This document shows, in pieces, positions 1 to 11,621 of a DNA stretch of 64,000 bases (position 1 is its first letter; every line of letters begins with the position of its first letter). Position numbers and translations under genes: made by a program. The stretch lies in contig JAIXOF010000134.1 in the NCBI GenBank assembly GCA_027486935.1, positions 1 through 64,000 on the forward strand. Reading direction: 5' to 3'. A model generated the notes under the pieces. It searched no databases. It saw nothing but the letters and a program-made list of their open reading frames with translations, and was not told the origin of the DNA. The stretch is from Cyanobium sp. C1_MAG_00004. GTDB taxonomy: Bacteria; Cyanobacteriota; Cyanobacteriia; PCC-6307; Cyanobiaceae.

Positions 1-294
1 CAACGGTTGGTCACCGCCCTGAGCGAATGCGGCGCCACCCCAGCCGCTGCCGATGTGATCGCGATCAGAACCCGACGCCACCACCCCTCGATGCTGGGGT
101 CTGTGGGCCATGGCCTGATCAATGGACTCTCAGCAGGGTTGAGCCTGCTGCTGGTGGGACTGGCCAGCCTGCTGATTCTGTTGGGCGGCCTGGGGTTGAT
201 GGTGCCCCTGGCCCCCGGCGGCGTTTTGCTGGTGCTGGCCTACGGGCTGGTGGAGCTGGCCCTGAGACTGCGACACCCCTTCGTCAACGGCTGA
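1..294 (+). CDS. C-terminal fragment of a membrane protein (cut by window edge)
   Basis: The reading frame is open to the left edge of the window, so only the last 97 codons are visible and the true start lies outside. The visible part has a short polar stretch with an RTRRHH basic patch, then two hydrophobic segments rich in Leu, Gly and Ala separated by a Pro/Gly turn (PLAPGG), and ends in HPFVNG. This is typical of the C-terminal membrane anchor of a larger protein. The last 11 bases overlap the 3' end of the convergent hydrolase gene. I do not recognise the family; a DUF4349-type anchored protein is only a guess. Confidence 0.5.
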   Translation, partial: QRLVTALSECGATPAAADVIAIRTRRHHPSMLGSVGHGLINGLSAGLSLLLVGLASLLILLGGLGLMVPLAPGGVLLVLAYGLVELALRLRHPFVNG

Positions 295-1789
295 CCAACG
301 GCTGGATCAGGGGTGCGGTCACGTCACGCAGAGGCATGGCCTTGTGACCCCAGCCATCGGTTGGCAGCGCCCCCCCCGAGGCAAACCAGGCCAGGATCAG
401 GGCATTGAGAGGCGAATCAGCGCTAGCCGCAGGGGCGCGCAGGTTGAAATGGTCTCCGCCTTCGACCAGCACCAGACGATTGCGGCCGATGCCGGTGTTG
501 GCGGCCAGCTTGCGCATGGGGTCGATGGCTTCGGGACCGACGGGCACCACCCAGTCTCTGGTGCCGCTGACCAGCAGCACGGTGCCATGCATGGCACGGG
601 CGGCACCGGGGGCAAACAGCAGCCGCATCGGAGGACTAACGGCCACAACCGACTGAACGCGCCGATCGGCCAGGCCAGCCTGGTCTGCAGCAGTCAGAAA
701 ACTGCACTGCAGCACCCAGCTCAGGTTGTGGGAGGAATCCTCGAGGTTGTTGCAGGTCTCCCGCAAACGCTCCGAGCTGGGTGTGACCCCGGCGAGCTGC
801 AGCACGGTTGTGGCGCCCCAGGAATGGCCGACAGCCAGCACCCGTGAGGTGTCGACCCCTGGGGGCAGACCAAGGCGACCGTCGGCAGCGGCATCGATCA
901 GGGCCGAGATGTCGCGGGGCCGCAGCTTCAGCTCGTCGGGCCCGGGTGGTGGCGTTTTGCCCGACAGCATGGCGTGTTGCTGGGCAGCATCACTGCCGGG
1001 GTGCTCAGGCAGCAGCACCGTGTAGCCATGGCTGGCCAAATGGTTGGCCCAGGCCTCGAAGCTGAGCGGACTGTCCCACAACCCGTGGGAGATCACTACC
1101 AGTTGGCCATTCGCCCCCGAGCTGGGCTCGATCACCACGACCGGCAAAGGAACGGTGCGATGGCTGACCGCCAGGGTCTGGGTGCGGCGGCGATAGGGCC
1201 GCGGGCCGGGAATGCTGAGCTGGTCATCCCTGGCGGGGGCTGTTGAGGCCAGCAGTGGCAGGGCCTCAGCCTGTTGACGCTGCAATCGCCTCAGGGCCGC
1301 AAGAAACCGACTCAGATCAACCGTCGCGGTCTTGCCCGGCACCGCCGCCAGCACATCGGCCAGGCTGAGTCGCCCTTGGTGGGCCGCGGTCTGCCGCAGC
1401 GCCTGCTCCAGTTCATCGCGGCCAACGGTCGGCGGCGCTGACAGCCCATCGACATCGCCAAAGGCTGCGATCAACAGCAAGGCCTGATCCACCAGGGAAC
1501 TGCCCTGGGCCACCCGCGCCAGTGAGGCCAACTGCAGCGGCAGGGCACTGTCCATGAACGACGCCAACTCGCGGCCGATCGCACCGTTGGTGGCACGGTC
1601 CAGCTCGGCCAGGTCGCTGCTGCCGGCTGCCATGGCGCGGGGGTCACGCAGGTCGGAGACCTTCAGGCTGAAGGTCTCCTGCATCATGGGCAACTTGATG
1701 CGGATGGTTTCGAGCGCCCGGGCCGGTTCAACCGCCAGCGCGGCCAGCAGCAGGGCTGCCAACAGGCGTGGGACTCGCCGCAGTTGCAT
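284..1789 (-). CDS. Secreted alpha/beta hydrolase with cyanobacterial N-terminal domain
   Basis: Predicted 501-residue serine hydrolase. Residues 1-25 form a signal peptide (twin Arg, Leu/Ala core, ending ARA), which decides the ATG at 1789 over the longer open frame upstream. Residues 26-190 look like the DUF1400-type domain found in front of cyanobacterial hydrolases. The alpha/beta fold follows, with an oxyanion HG near 234, nucleophile Ser about 323 in GHSWG, acid Asp about 411 in GTRDW and His about 447 in GGDHF, so the triad is complete. It is probably periplasmic or lipid-anchored. The substrate is not deducible; a dienelactone-hydrolase or platelet-activating-factor-hydrolase-like esterase is likely. 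It is divergent from the P-type ATPase-like gene, with 139 bp between them. Confidence 0.85.
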   Translation of the reverse strand: MQLRRVPRLLAALLLAALAVEPARALETIRIKLPMMQETFSLKVSDLRDPRAMAAGSSDLAELDRATNGAIGRELASFMDSALPLQLASLARVAQGSSLVDQALLLIAAFGDVDGLSAPPTVGRDELEQALRQTAAHQGRLSLADVLAAVPGKTATVDLSRFLAALRRLQRQQAEALPLLASTAPARDDQLSIPGPRPYRRRTQTLAVSHRTVPLPVVVIEPSSGANGQLVVISHGLWDSPLSFEAWANHLASHGYTVLLPEHPGSDAAQQHAMLSGKTPPPGPDELKLRPRDISALIDAAADGRLGLPPGVDTSRVLAVGHSWGATTVLQLAGVTPSSERLRETCNNLEDSSHNLSWVLQCSFLTAADQAGLADRRVQSVVAVSPPMRLLFAPGAARAMHGTVLLVSGTRDWVVPVGPEAIDPMRKLAANTGIGRNRLVLVEGGDHFNLRAPAASADSPLNALILAWFASGGALPTDGWGHKAMPLRDVTAPLIQPLVSR

Positions 1790-1928: not shown

Positions 1929-4103
1929 ATGGCATCGTCTGCAGCCGCTGCAGCAGCCGCCACTGACCTGACCTGGAGCGTGGCCAGTGATCTTCCCGGT
2001 CGCCTCAGAATTCGAAGCGAGCAACTGGTGGCTTCGCCGCTGTTGCGCCACCACTGCACCCTGGTGCTGACGAGCTGCCACTGGCTTCTGCAGTTCAGGA
2101 TCAACCCGCTGGCCGGAAGTCTCTGCGTCGCCTACCCCAAGCACCGACGACGGGAACTGCAGCCTTTGCTCGAGCAGGCTCTGACCCTGGCCATCGCCGA
2201 CGGTGACCTGACAGCGCTGCCACCGGCTCCGTACGCAGGGCCACGGGTCAAACGGACGCTGGCCCATGGGGCGGCCTGCCTGGCCCTGATCAGCCTCGAA
2301 AGCGCGTTGGCCGTGCCAACGCTGGTGATGGTGGGCCTGAGCTCAATCCTGCTGTTGCCACTGGCCCGTGAAGTCCTGCAGCAACTGCAGCGTCGACGCC
2401 TGACCGTCCAGAGTCTGGAACTGGGTTTTTCAGGCGTGTTGGTCAGCCAGGGCCTGACCGCTGAAGCTCTGCTCGATCTGGCCTTCGGGGATGCGGTTGA
2501 AATCGCCCAGAGCGCCGTCGAGCGTGACGCGCTTGATCTGGATGCTGACCACCTGTTGCAACGCCTGGGTGAGCGGGTCAGCCTCAATGCGATCGACACC
2601 GACGGGTCACCCAGGCCTTGGCTGCTCAAGGATGTGGCCGTGGGCATCGCCATCCGAATCGACCGGCGCGAACACTGCCTACTGTCAGCGCGTCTGTTGA
2701 ATGGCGAACTGATCGTCGTCAACCGTCTGGTCGATGGCGACTGGCGTCCCCAGCGTCTGCTGCAGGGTGACCTGCTCGAGCCTGGAGCCCTGGTCATCAG
2801 CGGTGTGGCCGAAGCGCGGATCGAACACTGCATCCACACCGATCCTGCCTACAGATTGCTCAGGGAGCACTCGGCCAGGGCGCAGCACGAGCCCAAGGGG
2901 GCCGAACGTTGGCTGAAGCGGTACAAACAGGTGATGCCACCGCTGTTGCTGGGCCTGGGGGGGGCTTTGATTTCGATCGGCTCGACTGAAGCCGCCCTGG
3001 CTTCGTTTCAGTTCAACCCTCTCAGTGACTGGGAGGAGCAGAAACTGGCCTCACAACTGACAACGATTGCCGATCTGAATCTGCACAAGCTGCGCATTCG
3101 CAAGCCTGCTGCGATCGAGGAGATCGGCAAGATCCGCCATCTGATCATCAGCCGCAGCTGCCTGGACCGCATCGGCGGCATCCAGGTGCGGGAGCAGATC
3201 GCCAACCCGACCACCACTCCACCCGGTTCGCTCGTGCAACTGCTGGCGGGGATCCAACACTGGATCTGCGGCAACGATGGCGCTGCACTCTGGTCACAGC
3301 AACTGCAGAAGGTTGCTGACCCTGTCGCTGTCCAACACGTTGAGATCAGACACCTGAGCGAAGGATGGACGATCACCGCCCAAGACGGCCGCTGCTGGCA
3401 GCTGCGCCAACAGGCCATGGTCCCCGGCGAACGCTGCCACACCCATCTGAACCCGCTGGAAATCTGGAAGGACGACGTTCGACTGGGAACGGTGGAGCTG
3501 CTGAGCGAACCGGACCAGCATTGGCAGGACACCTGCCAGAGCCTGCAGGACCTGGGCGTCGAAATCCATCTGATCGCGGGCGAAGAGGTGGAACGGCTCG
3601 ATGAGATGGCCGTTGCCCTTGGCATCGACGCGCAGCACCGCTACGGATCCTGCAGCGCTCTTGATCGACTTGAACTGGTCCGCAGCTTTCAGCAACGTGG
3701 CGAAGCGGTGGGCTACGTCGGCTATGTGCTGCATGATCTGCCAGCCCTGGCCCAGGCAGACGTTTCGATCGGCCTCGATGTCGATGACGACAGCCGCTAC
3801 CTGGCCAACCTCTGCGACCTGTCGCTGGGTGCCGATGCCCTCTGGCTGCCGCGCTTGATCCTGATCAGCCGCCGCATGGAGCGGGTGTGTAACCAGAATT
3901 TCACTCTGTTGGGAGGCAGCCAACTGATCGCATCGCTGGCCACCGCTGCTGGCCTAATTGCACCTCTGCAAACGGTGCTGTTGAGCGATATTCCACTGCT
4001 GATGGCCGAGCTCAACAACCTGTTGGCCCTGCGGGCTCCTAGGCAGCTGGTTGCTCCTGGGCCTGGGCATTCAACAAGCCGCGGTGCAGCGGTGGCAAAA
4101 TGA
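1929..4103 (+). CDS. Degenerate P-type (P1B-like) ATPase, probably catalytically inactive
   Basis: The 724-residue protein keeps the fold order of heavy-metal P-type ATPases: two N-terminal hydrophobic helices (about 110-148), an actuator-like region (about 165-300), a membrane pair (335-360), phosphorylation/nucleotide domains and C-terminal helices (about 665-705). The signature residues have changed. The CPC membrane motif is replaced by FNPLSD (about 362). The DKTGT phosphorylation motif is DRIGGI (413-418). The hinge GDGIND reads GYVLHD, followed by a well conserved PALAQADVSIGLD (about 605-617). The TGE loop is not recognisable. The Asp survives, but Lys and both Thr are gone, so ATP-driven cycling is unlikely. 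The frame is intact over 2.1 kb, so it is not a simple pseudogene. Its 3' end overlaps the convergent antiporter gene by 65 bp. Confidence 0.8.
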   Translation: MASSAAAAAAATDLTWSVASDLPGRLRIRSEQLVASPLLRHHCTLVLTSCHWLLQFRINPLAGSLCVAYPKHRRRELQPLLEQALTLAIADGDLTALPPAPYAGPRVKRTLAHGAACLALISLESALAVPTLVMVGLSSILLLPLAREVLQQLQRRRLTVQSLELGFSGVLVSQGLTAEALLDLAFGDAVEIAQSAVERDALDLDADHLLQRLGERVSLNAIDTDGSPRPWLLKDVAVGIAIRIDRREHCLLSARLLNGELIVVNRLVDGDWRPQRLLQGDLLEPGALVISGVAEARIEHCIHTDPAYRLLREHSARAQHEPKGAERWLKRYKQVMPPLLLGLGGALISIGSTEAALASFQFNPLSDWEEQKLASQLTTIADLNLHKLRIRKPAAIEEIGKIRHLIISRSCLDRIGGIQVREQIANPTTTPPGSLVQLLAGIQHWICGNDGAALWSQQLQKVADPVAVQHVEIRHLSEGWTITAQDGRCWQLRQQAMVPGERCHTHLNPLEIWKDDVRLGTVELLSEPDQHWQDTCQSLQDLGVEIHLIAGEEVERLDEMAVALGIDAQHRYGSCSALDRLELVRSFQQRGEAVGYVGYVLHDLPALAQADVSIGLDVDDDSRYLANLCDLSLGADALWLPRLILISRRMERVCNQNFTLLGGSQLIASLATAAGLIAPLQTVLLSDIPLLMAELNNLLALRAPRQLVAPGPGHSTSRGAAVAK

Positions 4104-5466
4104 GGCTCTTGATCAGCATGCTGAGCACCACGGTGAAACAAACCACATCGACAATGAAGGTTTCAGAGACGGGGTGGATCACACGCTGAAAGGGGATACC
4201 ACTTGCCTCAATTAAATCTGGGATAGTGATCGCCAGTGCCATCGAAATCGCACCCTTGGGCGCCCACAGTGAAAGAAATTGGCGCTCGCGATTGCTCAAG
4301 AAATCAGAACCCCTGAAAAACAGATACACCGTCAAAGGCCTTAACAGCCAAACCACTGTCAGCAGAATCACAGCCGCGAACAGGGCTGGCAGGAAGCCAA
4401 CACTGAGATCAACAGCCAAACCTGCCATGAAAAAAATCAAAGACTCGGAAGCGATATTGATTGACTCGAGCTGGACCGAAAGAATTTCTTTCTCATCCCG
4501 ACTCTCCTCGCCCGAGAGGAGAATGCTGACCACAAATCCCATGACCAGGCTGCAGACCAACCCCCCTTGGCCAATCCAGGCATTGAAGCCATAACCGATC
4601 ATCACGAAACCGATCGCCAGATCGATCGACTGGGAGCGCTCGACAGCAAACCGCTTGATCGTGACCGTAAGCAAATAGCCAAGAACGGCTCCGATGACGA
4701 TGCCCTGCGAAATGCTGCCGACAAAAATATCGACGGCCCTGGATGCCATCGTGGTGGTGCCCTTGTTCGTGAAGAACTCGAATAAAGCCTGACCGATGAC
4801 AAGGGTCATGGCAGCACTGATCGCCGTTTCAAATTCGAGCACTCCCATGACCCGTTCACTGAAACGATCAACGCGCTTGACAATGAAAGTGAAAGCACCC
4901 CAATCCAACGGAGCGATGCAATAGGCCAGGGCCAACGCAATCAACAATGGCTGCTCACTGGTGATATAATCGGCATTAATCGCACTGAGGGCGTAGTACA
5001 TCACAGCCGAGCCAACGGCGATGACGATGAACACGCCAAAGACAGAGATCAGCACACTGGGAACAACAAATTCCTGGCGCTTAAAATAGCGACGACATAT
5101 CTTCACGCCGCTATAAAAAAGAAGCAAGCAAAGAGTGATAATATGAAGATCTTCAAAACCTTCGTGATCAAAAGCCGTATTGGACATCGGCTGAATCGCC
5201 ACGCCGGCCCCAAACAAAGCCAACGCTCCAGGGATACCGATGCGCAGGGCGTAGCGGTCAATGACGATGCTGAACACCAGGATCGCGCCAATGGCTGCCA
5301 ACTGAACAGGCAGGCTGCCAAGAGCATCCAGGCCGACTGCTTCAGCAACGCCAGCACCTTCACCAACGGGCAAAGCCTGCGGCAGCGGCGATTCAGAACC
5401 TGCAGCCAGGACGCCGAGCCAACCGCCTGGAATCAGCAACAGCAAAGGAGTCAGCAACAGATGCAT
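4039..5466 (-). CDS. CPA1-family Na+/H+ antiporter-like protein lacking the ND motif
   Basis: The 475-residue integral membrane protein has about a dozen hydrophobic segments and a likely N-terminal signal or extra helix. Sequence flow matches NhaP-type CPA1 exchangers. The APTDP-like ion-site helix appears as APLDW (185-189, Asp188 kept), and the following helix starts LEFETAISAA, where active CPA1 members have an EGESLLND-like motif. The Asn-Asp pair is Ser217-Ala218 here, so ion selectivity or activity may differ. A late WAPKGAISMALA segment matches the conserved W-x-P-R-G helix of the family. The gene is AT-richer than its neighbours. It is convergent with the P-type ATPase-like gene, overlapping by 65 bp. 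An alternative is a divergent monovalent cation channel or exchanger. Confidence 0.82.
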   Translation of the reverse strand: MHLLLTPLLLLIPGGWLGVLAAGSESPLPQALPVGEGAGVAEAVGLDALGSLPVQLAAIGAILVFSIVIDRYALRIGIPGALALFGAGVAIQPMSNTAFDHEGFEDLHIITLCLLLFYSGVKICRRYFKRQEFVVPSVLISVFGVFIVIAVGSAVMYYALSAINADYITSEQPLLIALALAYCIAPLDWGAFTFIVKRVDRFSERVMGVLEFETAISAAMTLVIGQALFEFFTNKGTTTMASRAVDIFVGSISQGIVIGAVLGYLLTVTIKRFAVERSQSIDLAIGFVMIGYGFNAWIGQGGLVCSLVMGFVVSILLSGEESRDEKEILSVQLESINIASESLIFFMAGLAVDLSVGFLPALFAAVILLTVVWLLRPLTVYLFFRGSDFLSNRERQFLSLWAPKGAISMALAITIPDLIEASGIPFQRVIHPVSETFIVDVVCFTVVLSMLIKSLILPPLHRGLLNAQAQEQPAA

Positions 5467-5507: not shown

Positions 5508-6023
5508 TCAGGCGGCAATGACTGCGTCATCGCTGGTGACTTTCCAGCTCAGACGCTGGCCCGGCCGGTTGATGCGCCAGAAACGCAGACCCTGGCGCTC
5601 AAAGTAGGGAAGCTGACCGTCACCCACCACTGGAGGGAGACGTTTGAGCTGCAGCAGCTCAGCCAGCTCACGACTGTCGACCTCGATGCCGGTCCGGACC
5701 AGGCGCTCCAGGATCTCGAGTCGTTCCCGGAACAGGCGCAGGTCCGCATAGAGATCGGCTTTGTACCAGTTGCCATCGGTGGGAACCGGCAGATGATGCA
5801 CAGAAGGTTCATCCAGCACCAGCTCGGCCGCCACCGTCTCTGCTGGGTCTCCACCGGCACGATTCACCAGGGTGGCCGCATCGACTGAGCTCAGAAAGGT
5901 ACGCATGCCCCGACGGATCGGCTCAAGACCGAGCCGCCGGATCAGCAACAGCAGATCAACCCGGCCGATGCCGAGCTCGGCCTCAAGGCGCGACAGGGGA
6001 ATCAGCTCGTCGGTGGTGGCCAT
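5508..6023 (-). CDS. Conserved cyanobacterial hypothetical protein (HTH-like N-terminus)
   Basis: The 171-residue soluble protein starts at the ATG at 6023 (MATTDELIPLSRL), 8 bases after the stop of the SDR gene, so the two are probably co-transcribed. The N-terminal 50 residues (SRLEAELGIGRVDLLLLIRRLG) look like a MerR- or excisionase-type helix-turn-helix; the middle is helical and charged (LRLFRERLEILERLV). The C-terminus, WRINRPGQRLSWKV, has no motif I can name. No signal peptide or membrane segment is seen. The function is not recognised; a small DNA-binding or adaptor protein is possible. Confidence 0.65.
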   Translation of the reverse strand: MATTDELIPLSRLEAELGIGRVDLLLLIRRLGLEPIRRGMRTFLSSVDAATLVNRAGGDPAETVAAELVLDEPSVHHLPVPTDGNWYKADLYADLRLFRERLEILERLVRTGIEVDSRELAELLQLKRLPPVVGDGQLPYFERQGLRFWRINRPGQRLSWKVTSDDAVIAA

Positions 6024-6031
6024 GCCGTTGT

Positions 6032-9523: not shown

Positions 9524-10506
9524 GTGGCGCCGCCGCGAGAGGGCCCCGGGTGTTGCAGTTCGGCTTCACCAGCACAGACGCTGCCCGGGCCGTCGACTTT
9601 TACGGCCAATCGCTCGGATTTGAAGCAAGGGAAACCCTGCAGATCGATGGGGGCGCCTACGGCCAGCTGCTGGGTCTGCCCCAGGGGCGCTTCCGCTTGA
9701 CGCGGCTGCAGCTGGGTCAGGAGACGCTCGAGATCCTCGAGGTGCCCAAGGCCGATGGCTCAGGCGCCCAACTCCAGGGGCGGGCGATACCAGCCGATTC
9801 ACGCAGCTGCGACCTCTGGTTTCAGCATCTGTGCCTGGTCACCAGCAACCTTGATGGCGCTCTGGAGCGCCTGCAGCCCGCGCTCGAGAGCGGTCTGGCC
9901 CGGGCGGTCTCGCGGGGACCCCAGACCCTGCCGGCCTGGAACAAGGCTGCCGCGGGCATCCGCGCCTTCAAGTTCAGGGATCCCGACGGGCACAACCTGG
10001 AACTGCTCGAGTTTCCAACAGACAAAGGCGATGCCCGCTGGCACGAGGGCTCGGGTCTGCTGGGCATCGACCACAGCGCCATCAGCATCAGCAACACGGC
10101 GCCGAGCTGCCGGTTCTATGACGATCTGCTGGGACTGCGCCTGGGGGGCGATGGCCTCAACAGCGGCCCCACCCAGGATGACCTCGACAATCTGGAGCAG
10201 ACCCAGGTGCGCATCACCGGCCACCGCTGCCCCCGGGGACCGGGAATCGAATGCCTCGAGTACCAGCCGCCGAACTGGGGCCGACCGATGCCGGCCGACC
10301 TGAACCCGGCGGACCTGGCCCACTGGCAGATCCGTCTGCAGGTCGACGATCTTGACCCCATTGCCACGCAGCTGGAGGCCTGTGGTGGGCGACTGCTGAG
10401 CCCTGGGGTGGTGCACCTGGGCGACCAGGGCGACGCTCTCGGCTTCAGCCGGGCTCTGCAGGTGGCCGATCCCGATGGCCACCGCCTGCAGCTGGTGCAG
10501 GCCTGA
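9520..10506 (+). CDS. VOC-superfamily protein, two glyoxalase-like domains
   Basis: The 328-residue protein is built of two vicinal-oxygen-chelate (glyoxalase/bleomycin-resistance/dioxygenase) halves. The first half has QFGFTSTDAARAVDFYGQSLGF and ends KFRDPDGHNLELLEF with the metal-ligand Glu. The second starts GIDHSAISISNTAPSCRFY and ends QVADPDGHRLQLVQA, where the ligand Glu is Gln. This is the usual length for ring-cleaving dioxygenases or fused lactoylglutathione lyase-like enzymes, but the reaction cannot be fixed from sequence. Its start overlaps the GlcG stop by 4 bases, and its stop overlaps the CAX start by 1 base. Confidence 0.8.
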   Translation: MSGAAARGPRVLQFGFTSTDAARAVDFYGQSLGFEARETLQIDGGAYGQLLGLPQGRFRLTRLQLGQETLEILEVPKADGSGAQLQGRAIPADSRSCDLWFQHLCLVTSNLDGALERLQPALESGLARAVSRGPQTLPAWNKAAAGIRAFKFRDPDGHNLELLEFPTDKGDARWHEGSGLLGIDHSAISISNTAPSCRFYDDLLGLRLGGDGLNSGPTQDDLDNLEQTQVRITGHRCPRGPGIECLEYQPPNWGRPMPADLNPADLAHWQIRLQVDDLDPIATQLEACGGRLLSPGVVHLGDQGDALGFSRALQVADPDGHRLQLVQA

Positions 10507-11621
10507 TGGCTCTGACGTCGTTGCTGCTGCCGCCGCCGCGCTGGCGGGTGCTGCTGCCGATCACCGCTCTGATGCTGTGGCCCGGTCTCGATGACCGGAT
10601 CGGCGGGCTGGGGGGCCATCTGCTGCTGTTTCTTCTCTGCGGCCTGGGCCTGCTGCCGCTGGCGATCGTGCTGAGCCAGCTGGTCGAAGCCCTGGTGAGC
10701 CACCTGGGCGCCAGGCTCGGCGGACTGATCAGCGTGATCTTTGGCAACGTCGTCGAGCTGCTGGTGGCGGTCAATGCCCTCAACAGCGGTCTCTACCCCC
10801 TGGTGGTGATCAGCATCGCCGGCTCGGTGATGATCAACTGCATGCCGGTGCTGGGGCTCGGCATCGTGCTGGCCACCCGCGGGGAGCAGCCCCAACGCAT
10901 CAACCCGCACAACCGGGATCTGCACACCCAGCAGCTGACAATGAGCGCGATCCTGCTAGCTCTGCCTTCGGTCTTCTACCAGCAGGTCATGGGTGCCGAT
11001 CTGCAGGGCAGCAGCCACCCTGACGGATTCAGCCTGTATTCGACCCTGGTCGCCCTACTGGCTCTGGCTTATTACTGCCTGGCCTTTGTGGTCACACTGC
11101 GGAGCCGCCAGCCGACGGCCCCAACGGCCACCGATGACGAACCCACGGCCTCCGAGGTGCCGTTGGCCGTGGTGGTGGTCGCCCTTGGTGTGGTGACGGT
11201 GCTGGTGGCGGGAATTTCAGACCGGCTGGTGGGCACCCTGGAACGCCTCGTTAGCCAATCCCACCTGAGTGAACTGTTCGTGGGTCTGTTTCTGTTGCCC
11301 CTGTTCGGCTGTCTGCCCGAAGCCCTGGTGGGACTCAAGGCCGCCTCACGGCGCCAGATGCAACTGCTGATGACCAGCACGGTCGAATCCAGCCTGCAGC
11401 TGCTGCTGTTTGTGCTGCCGCTGCTGGTGCTGATCGGCATCCCGATGGGGCGCTACCTGCATCTGAGCCTGCCTCCGGTGGCCCTTGCTTCGCTAGCGAT
11501 TGCGGTGGTGATGATCGACCGCATCACCGACAACCGAGAAGTCATCTGGTACGAAGGCCTTCAACTGCTAATCCTGTTCGCCGCCATGGTGGCTGGATCG
11601 CTGTTGCTGATCAGCCCCTGA
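10506..11621 (+). CDS. Ca2+/H+ antiporter of the CAX family
   Basis: The 371-residue inner-membrane exchanger has ten to eleven hydrophobic segments in two repeats. The first alpha repeat shows GNVVELLVAVNALNSG, close to the CAX consensus GNAVELIIA. The second has GCLPEALVGLKAA followed by ESSLQLLLFVLPLLV, keeping the essential Glu but with Cys-Leu-Pro in place of the usual Asn. It exports Ca2+ against the proton gradient, in the plasma or thylakoid membrane. It is last in the 7.0-11.6 kb run, and its 3' end overlaps the convergent glycogen debranching gene by 61 bp. Its functional link to the sugar genes upstream is unclear. Confidence 0.87.
   Translation: MALTSLLLPPPRWRVLLPITALMLWPGLDDRIGGLGGHLLLFLLCGLGLLPLAIVLSQLVEALVSHLGARLGGLISVIFGNVVELLVAVNALNSGLYPLVVISIAGSVMINCMPVLGLGIVLATRGEQPQRINPHNRDLHTQQLTMSAILLALPSVFYQQVMGADLQGSSHPDGFSLYSTLVALLALAYYCLAFVVTLRSRQPTAPTATDDEPTASEVPLAVVVVALGVVTVLVAGISDRLVGTLERLVSQSHLSELFVGLFLLPLFGCLPEALVGLKAASRRQMQLLMTSTVESSLQLLLFVLPLLVLIGIPMGRYLHLSLPPVALASLAIAVVMIDRITDNREVIWYEGLQLLILFAAMVAGSLLLISP

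Follow-up and report, generated by a model that had tools for sequence, protein, structure and literature searches.

Why does the genome of a Cyanobium species carry a long, undamaged gene for an ion pump whose catalytic residues appear to be gone? We addressed this question in a window of 64,000 nucleotides (the whole stretch of DNA analyzed here) from Cyanobium sp. C1_MAG_00004, in which a sequence-only reading had pointed to the open reading frame at positions 1929-4103 as a P-type ATPase-like protein with altered catalytic signatures, retained as a pseudoenzyme rather than decaying. Gene calls were made with a simple codon-usage script instead of a standard gene caller.

A P1B-type ATPase fold with no intact catalytic signature

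The open reading frame was found to be a single frame on the forward strand with no stop codon and no frameshift, and the reported intact frame of 2.1 kb was thus confirmed at 724 amino acids. The NCBIfam model ATPase-IB_hvy, for heavy-metal P-type ATPases, matched the protein with E=1e-13, its score of 51 bits lying below the curated cut-off (346), and the Pfam families HMA_2 and E1-E2_ATPase were both detected below threshold. Its relatives in the PDB by sequence were mostly P1B pumps, with the match spanning the P domain and the last helices. The likeness to P-type ATPases is far beyond chance. We then placed the catalytic sites by alignment with 28 intact relatives.

Positions 1929-4103, forward strand: P1B-type ATPase pseudoenzyme (close to certain) of 724 amino acids, assigned from sequence, alignment, tree, omega and model.
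Positions 2733-2741, forward strand: TGE site, reading D269-G270-D271 in the alignment.
Positions 3012-3029, forward strand: TM4 motif site, reading F362-NPLSD (residues 362-367), where intact relatives read FDLGTG.
Positions 3150-3164, forward strand: DKTGT site, reading S408-R409-S410-C411-L412, with Ser at the catalytic Asp (alignment and AF2 model).
Positions 3666-3668, forward strand: P-domain Lys site, reading R580 in the alignment.
Positions 3720-3737, forward strand: GDGxND site, reading GYVLHD from G598 to D603 in the alignment.

The N-domain HP motif reads GN (G448-N449) and the TGD motif reads AGE at residues 550-552. Among the features of a working pump, the protein retains the fold and an HMA-like N terminus, while DKTGT, TGE, GDGxND, the P-domain Lys, HP and CPC or another TM4 metal motif are all absent. 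The claim that every catalytic signature is altered therefore stood insofar as no catalytic signature is intact, but it had counted the absence of CPC, which is not a valid yardstick: TM4 of the closest intact pumps reads FDLGTG, likewise without CPC, and so a missing CPC is in itself no loss. FNPLSD was rightly placed at the TM4 site. The reading of GDGIND as GYVLHD agreed with the alignment, and the PALAQADVSIGLD block was well conserved in the alignment with intact relatives, as had been noted. The position of the phosphorylated Asp had to be revised. DRIGGI, previously taken for the DKTGT site, starts at residue 413, five residues past the true site, which excludes Asp413 as the catalytic position; the counterpart of the phosphorylated Asp is Ser408, at which a strand of the AF2 model (residues 402-408) ends, and the alignment and model together ruled out the earlier mapping. 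The TGE site, which had been described as not visible, was located as DGD. We are close to certain that the product is a P1B-type ATPase pseudoenzyme, with the loss of activity predicted from sequence.

The HMA-like N-terminal domain is unusually conserved

An AF2 model based on 30 family members had a pLDDT of 82 and a pTM of 0.76. The best PDB matches of the model were LpCopA and ZntA, with the top-ranked structures in E2P-type states and nearly the whole chain aligned.

Positions 1965-2183, forward strand: N-terminal HMA-like domain (residues 13-85), with R25, R27 and R57 invariant and no CxxC.

In the model this domain has the order strand-strand-helix-strand-strand-helix, and the three arginines were invariant across the 30 aligned rows, CxxC being absent from the domain in the pseudoenzyme. 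These features make it a candidate CoBaHMA (conserved-basic HMA-like) domain, a type defined by an HMA-like fold in which basic residues are conserved and the metal-binding CxxC is missing. Identity in the HMA-like domain was higher in the pseudoenzyme than in the intact pump, both across genera (0.49 versus 0.36) and within the genus (0.70 versus 0.50), whereas in every other domain it was lower in the pseudoenzyme. This inversion suggested that the N-terminal domain may bear much of the function that the pseudoenzyme has retained. A conserved HMA-like domain is compatible with the roles proposed earlier, which were metal or lipid sensing or a scaffold.

The pseudoenzymes form one clade under purifying selection

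Genus-level searches recovered orthologues at 56-62% identity. In a profile search, family members were found in 28 of 400 Cyanobiaceae genomes, several of which are single-contig assemblies; in this and the other searches of the 400 genomes, scoring was confined to the top few candidates of each genome, and copy numbers are lower bounds. We read 41 members, comprising 24 of branch A (including that of the window), 12 of branch B and 5 of branch C. The complete members all had open frames and came from many genera. In all 41, the catalytic Asp is replaced by Ser or Thr and both the HP pair and the P-domain Lys are lost, whereas neither G270 nor D603 varies. Single ancestral residues persist in some: 10 branch A members retain the first Asp of GDGxND, which is usually lost, and two retain the Glu of TGE. 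A separate motif, F-[NDTS]-P, is conserved in TM4, and its proline (Pro364) is present in 41 of 41.

The 41 sequences formed one branch with an SH-aLRT support of 100, and subsets of them also formed one branch in two other trees. Catalytic loss is therefore most simply older than the split between branches A and B. Across the class, a search of 390 genomes detected no pseudoenzyme outside the Cyanobiaceae, with scores falling from 656 to 269 bits; the next matches outside the family all retained DKTGT among those read. One scan of the genome contigs returned the named family members and otherwise weak partial matches only. We also observed a second pseudo-P-ATPase in the window's own genome (L042:2070-4229, contig C60), which belongs to branch B, is 27% identical to the window gene and is divergent from a GDT1-family exchanger gene.

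These data bear on whether the gene is a pseudogene that has yet to acquire its first stop codon. The alteration of every catalytic motif and a rate of evolution above that of the intact pump are what decay would predict. However, the complete members are open across many genera, the same replacements occur throughout a deep clade, and Nei-Gojobori omega for close pairs was 0.137-0.195 in branch A and 0.05-0.24 in branch B, compared with 0.09-0.13 for the intact pump of the same genomes. Branch A is under purifying selection, somewhat relaxed relative to the intact pump. With omega well below 1 and conservation across genera, we ruled out decay, to which we assign almost no probability. Both checks proposed with the pseudoenzyme claim came out in its favor: dN/dS was far from neutral (0.14-0.20 for close pairs of branch A versus 0.09-0.13), and the search for close relatives with an intact DKTGT found none among the 41 clade members.

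We also considered whether the protein might still hydrolyze ATP or phosphate esters through another nucleophile. The invariance of Asp603 and the constant Ser or Thr at the nucleophile site would be in keeping with this, but the members lack the HP motif of the nucleotide-binding domain, the P-domain Lys and, in most cases, the first Asp of GDGxND, and we know of no HAD-fold enzyme with Ser as nucleophile. We regard residual hydrolysis as very unlikely.

The pseudoenzyme accompanies an intact pump

An intact HMA_2-type pump was found in 30 of the 400 Cyanobiaceae genomes, and all 28 genomes with a pseudoenzyme were among these 30 (Fisher p about 5e-41, a value that overstates independence because the genomes are related). 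In the 29th genome, an open pseudoenzyme start of 328 residues lies beside the pump and is ended by the contig end, and in the 30th the contig stops just past the pump. At 26 loci, pump and pseudoenzyme lay next to each other in the same orientation, in most cases separated by a small HMA-like gene.

The intact pump of the window's own genome is located on another contig, C84 (L043:6859-9336), and scored 480 bits with ATPase-IB_hvy, above the cut-off of 346. The last 265 bases of C84 (L043:9587-9851) match window positions 1-265 with four mismatches, which are probably strain variation that broke the assembly. We infer from this overlap that C84 and the window contig are neighbors in the genome, and it ruled out an orphan pseudoenzyme lacking a pump partner. 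The small gene between pump and pseudoenzyme spans the join.

Positions 1-294, forward strand: C-terminal part of a small protein with HMA-like and transmembrane parts, the N-terminal part being on C84 (L043:9341-9850).

In a model of this small protein (pLDDT 88, pTM 0.57), membrane helices follow an HMA-like domain. The intact pump of the locus shares with the pseudoenzyme full-length homology, an HMA-like N terminus, a TM4 without CPC and, in relatives, an adjacent position. It differs in that all its catalytic motifs are present and that it is more conserved everywhere but in the HMA-like domain.

From co-occurrence and adjacency, the pseudoenzyme likely works with the adjacent intact pump as its partner or regulator. 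The competing explanation is that the protein has become a passive membrane component (ion-binding, channel-like or a scaffold) whose action does not depend on the pump cycle, the shared locus reflecting only a common pathway. Linkage differs among branches: branch B is mostly unlinked to the pump, and branch C is distant from it and directly beside an Na_Ca_ex gene, as an independent role would allow, and the TM4 motif with its constant proline also fits such a role. On the other hand, branch A nearly always adjoins the pump, and no sampled genome has a pseudoenzyme without a pump. We consider an independent role unlikely, although it deserves to be kept in mind.

The clade may derive from an ancestral pump pair

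Two HMA_2-type pumps were found together at six loci outside the Cyanobiaceae (L161, L162, L163, L164, L166 and L169). In each pair, GDGxND is replaced by GEGxND in one pump, which also differs in its TM4 motif, and both keep DKTGT. These tandem pairs of other cyanobacteria resemble our locus in that two related pumps, one of them variant, are encoded together; they differ in that DKTGT is intact in both and the variant lies upstream, not downstream, of the standard pump. The pseudoenzyme clade grouped with the second, GEG-type pumps in two of three trees, with support of 83 and 99, but not in the third, and grouping it with the Cyanobiaceae pump was not rejected (AU p=0.25). An ancestral pump pair whose second member lost catalysis in the Cyanobiaceae is plausible but unproven. 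At another locus (L172:6854-9025), a script scan showed a second pump beside an intact one, with DKTGT kept and neither GDGxND nor GEGxND; this gene has a TAG inside its search match.

The gene neighborhood suggests a possible role in calcium or carbonate handling

The genes flanking the pseudoenzyme in the window were as follows.

Positions 287-1789, reverse strand: alpha/beta hydrolase, between the small gene and the pseudoenzyme here and not seen there in relatives.
Positions 4039-5466, reverse strand: Na_H_Exchanger family antiporter, convergent with and overlapping the 3' end of the pseudoenzyme gene; the same neighbor occurs in three genus mates.
Positions 5508-6029, reverse strand: conserved neighbor with no Pfam match, whose family recurs at 19 of 48 stretches.
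Positions 10506-11621, forward strand: Na_Ca_ex family exchanger, with relatives directly beside pseudoenzymes or intact pumps elsewhere.

NhaP-type proteins are expected to carry an Asn-Asp motif, which is missing from the antiporter; the site reads LEFETAISAA. The pattern E-T-x-[IMV]-S-A was present in 10 of 10 family members read from two genera, and the antiporter is therefore a conserved variant too.

Across the 48 stretches, the recurrent neighbors were DUF5132-like (25), ArsA_HSP20-like (24), DUF1345 (19) and small HMA-like (19) proteins, an HMA-like protein with a DUF454-like end (18), beta-carbonic anhydrase (17), the antiporter (10), an HMA-like glycine-zipper protein (10), GDT1 (9) and Na_Ca_ex (7). 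The sequence-only reading had overlooked this wider cluster, the intact partner pump and the second pseudo-paralogue. Na_Ca_ex directly adjoins branch C copies in four genomes (L113:7632-12234, L116:8029-10419, L119:7965-10229 and L120:6152-8407); it also adjoins intact pumps in two other families and is one gene away in a third. A branched-chain-type ABC transporter lies upstream of branch C copies in the three longer of these stretches, and L113 has two branch C copies in tandem. Flanking the intact pump on the other strand, the gene at L043:5308-6378 encodes a protein that ends in an ArsA_HSP20 domain.

A few kb upstream of the pump gene on C84, the gene at L043:3505-4485 lies beside a beta-carbonic anhydrase gene and encodes a protein with an HMA-like N terminus and, in addition, three stretches of glycine zipper. 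This architecture resembles that of calcyanin and makes the protein a candidate calcyanin. The gene was found in 16 of the 400 Cyanobiaceae genomes, of which 15 also carry the pump pair; many genomes with the pair lacked it at the threshold used. It is also present outside the Cyanobiaceae, where the grouping of its genomes fits that of the carriers of ccyA (calcyanin), a candidate match. The published glycine-zipper protein GlzT is apparently a different, two-helix protein. From these neighbors we hypothesize that the pump and pseudoenzyme handle calcium or carbonate. V-type Ca2+-ATPases have been suggested for other carbonate-forming bacteria, but no functional equivalents were found in Cyanobacteriota (PMC11773610).

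The cargo might instead be a transition metal (Mn2+, Zn2+ or Cd2+), with the pseudoenzyme as an accessory, an arrangement like that of the CtpC-PacL effluxosome of mycobacteria. GDT1 proteins are able to move Mn2+, and the intact pump clears the ATPase-IB_hvy cut-off (480 versus 346 bits). The small DUF5132-like membrane protein at 25 of the 48 stretches also recalls PacL (PMC9374683, PMC13043812). However, TM4 of the pump lacks CPC (FDLGTG) and the HMA-like domain of the pseudoenzyme lacks CxxC, and the carbonic anhydrase, Na_Ca_ex and glycine-zipper neighbors fit calcium or carbonate better. A transition metal is a possible cargo, if a less probable one.

A probable non-pumping partner of the intact pump

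We favor, with moderate confidence, a pseudoenzyme that does not itself pump but acts alongside the intact pump as its partner or regulator, probably in Ca2+ or carbonate handling. The protein retains the predicted pump fold but would be unable to form the aspartyl-phosphate, and it would therefore not pump by a P-type cycle. It would be the dedicated partner of the one intact HMA_2-type P-ATPase encoded alongside, and may associate in the membrane with that pump and the small HMA-like companion. The conserved N-terminal HMA-like domain could bind a ligand or the membrane surface and thereby control or localize the pump. To judge by the neighboring genes, the cargo would be a divalent ion, probably Ca2+, and the carbonic anhydrase, cation exchangers and calcyanin-like protein may point to Ca2+ sequestration or intracellular carbonate. 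A more specific proposal, that picocyanobacteria have a two-subunit P-type ATPase in which an intact pump is joined by a dead, ligand-sensing pump that gates Ca2+ loading for intracellular carbonate, is tentative, and we think it rather doubtful in this full form.

A dead pump that lies almost always beside a living one would offer a natural model for the regulation of P-type ATPases by a look-alike. If the calcium link is true, the locus also supplies candidates for the transport step of intracellular carbonate formation in cyanobacteria.

Comparison with known systems

Pseudokinases and other pseudoenzymes are well known. In the literature searched, with subscription journals mostly outside its coverage, we found no prior description of a conserved bacterial P-type ATPase pseudoenzyme. 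The pseudoenzyme shares with LpCopA (3RFU/4BBJ) and ZntA (4UMW) the fold over nearly the whole chain, the order of the A, P and N domains and the TM5-6 end; unlike them, it has no catalytic Asp, TGE, HP or GDGxND, its HMA-like domain has no CxxC and its TM4 has no CPC. The apicomplexan guanylate cyclases likewise have a P-type ATPase module, P4-ATPase-like, coupled to another activity, but they are eukaryotic fusion proteins of another P-type class (PMC6592433, PMC7858053). One of these sources reports that the activity of the P4-ATPase-like domain is essential (PMC7858053). The nearest functional parallel is the mycobacterial CtpC-PacL1 effluxosome. There, too, a P1B pump depends on a small membrane protein encoded by an adjacent gene, but this obligatory partner is a DUF1490 protein, not a pseudoenzyme of pump fold, and the reports mention no pseudoenzyme (PMC9374683, PMC13043812).
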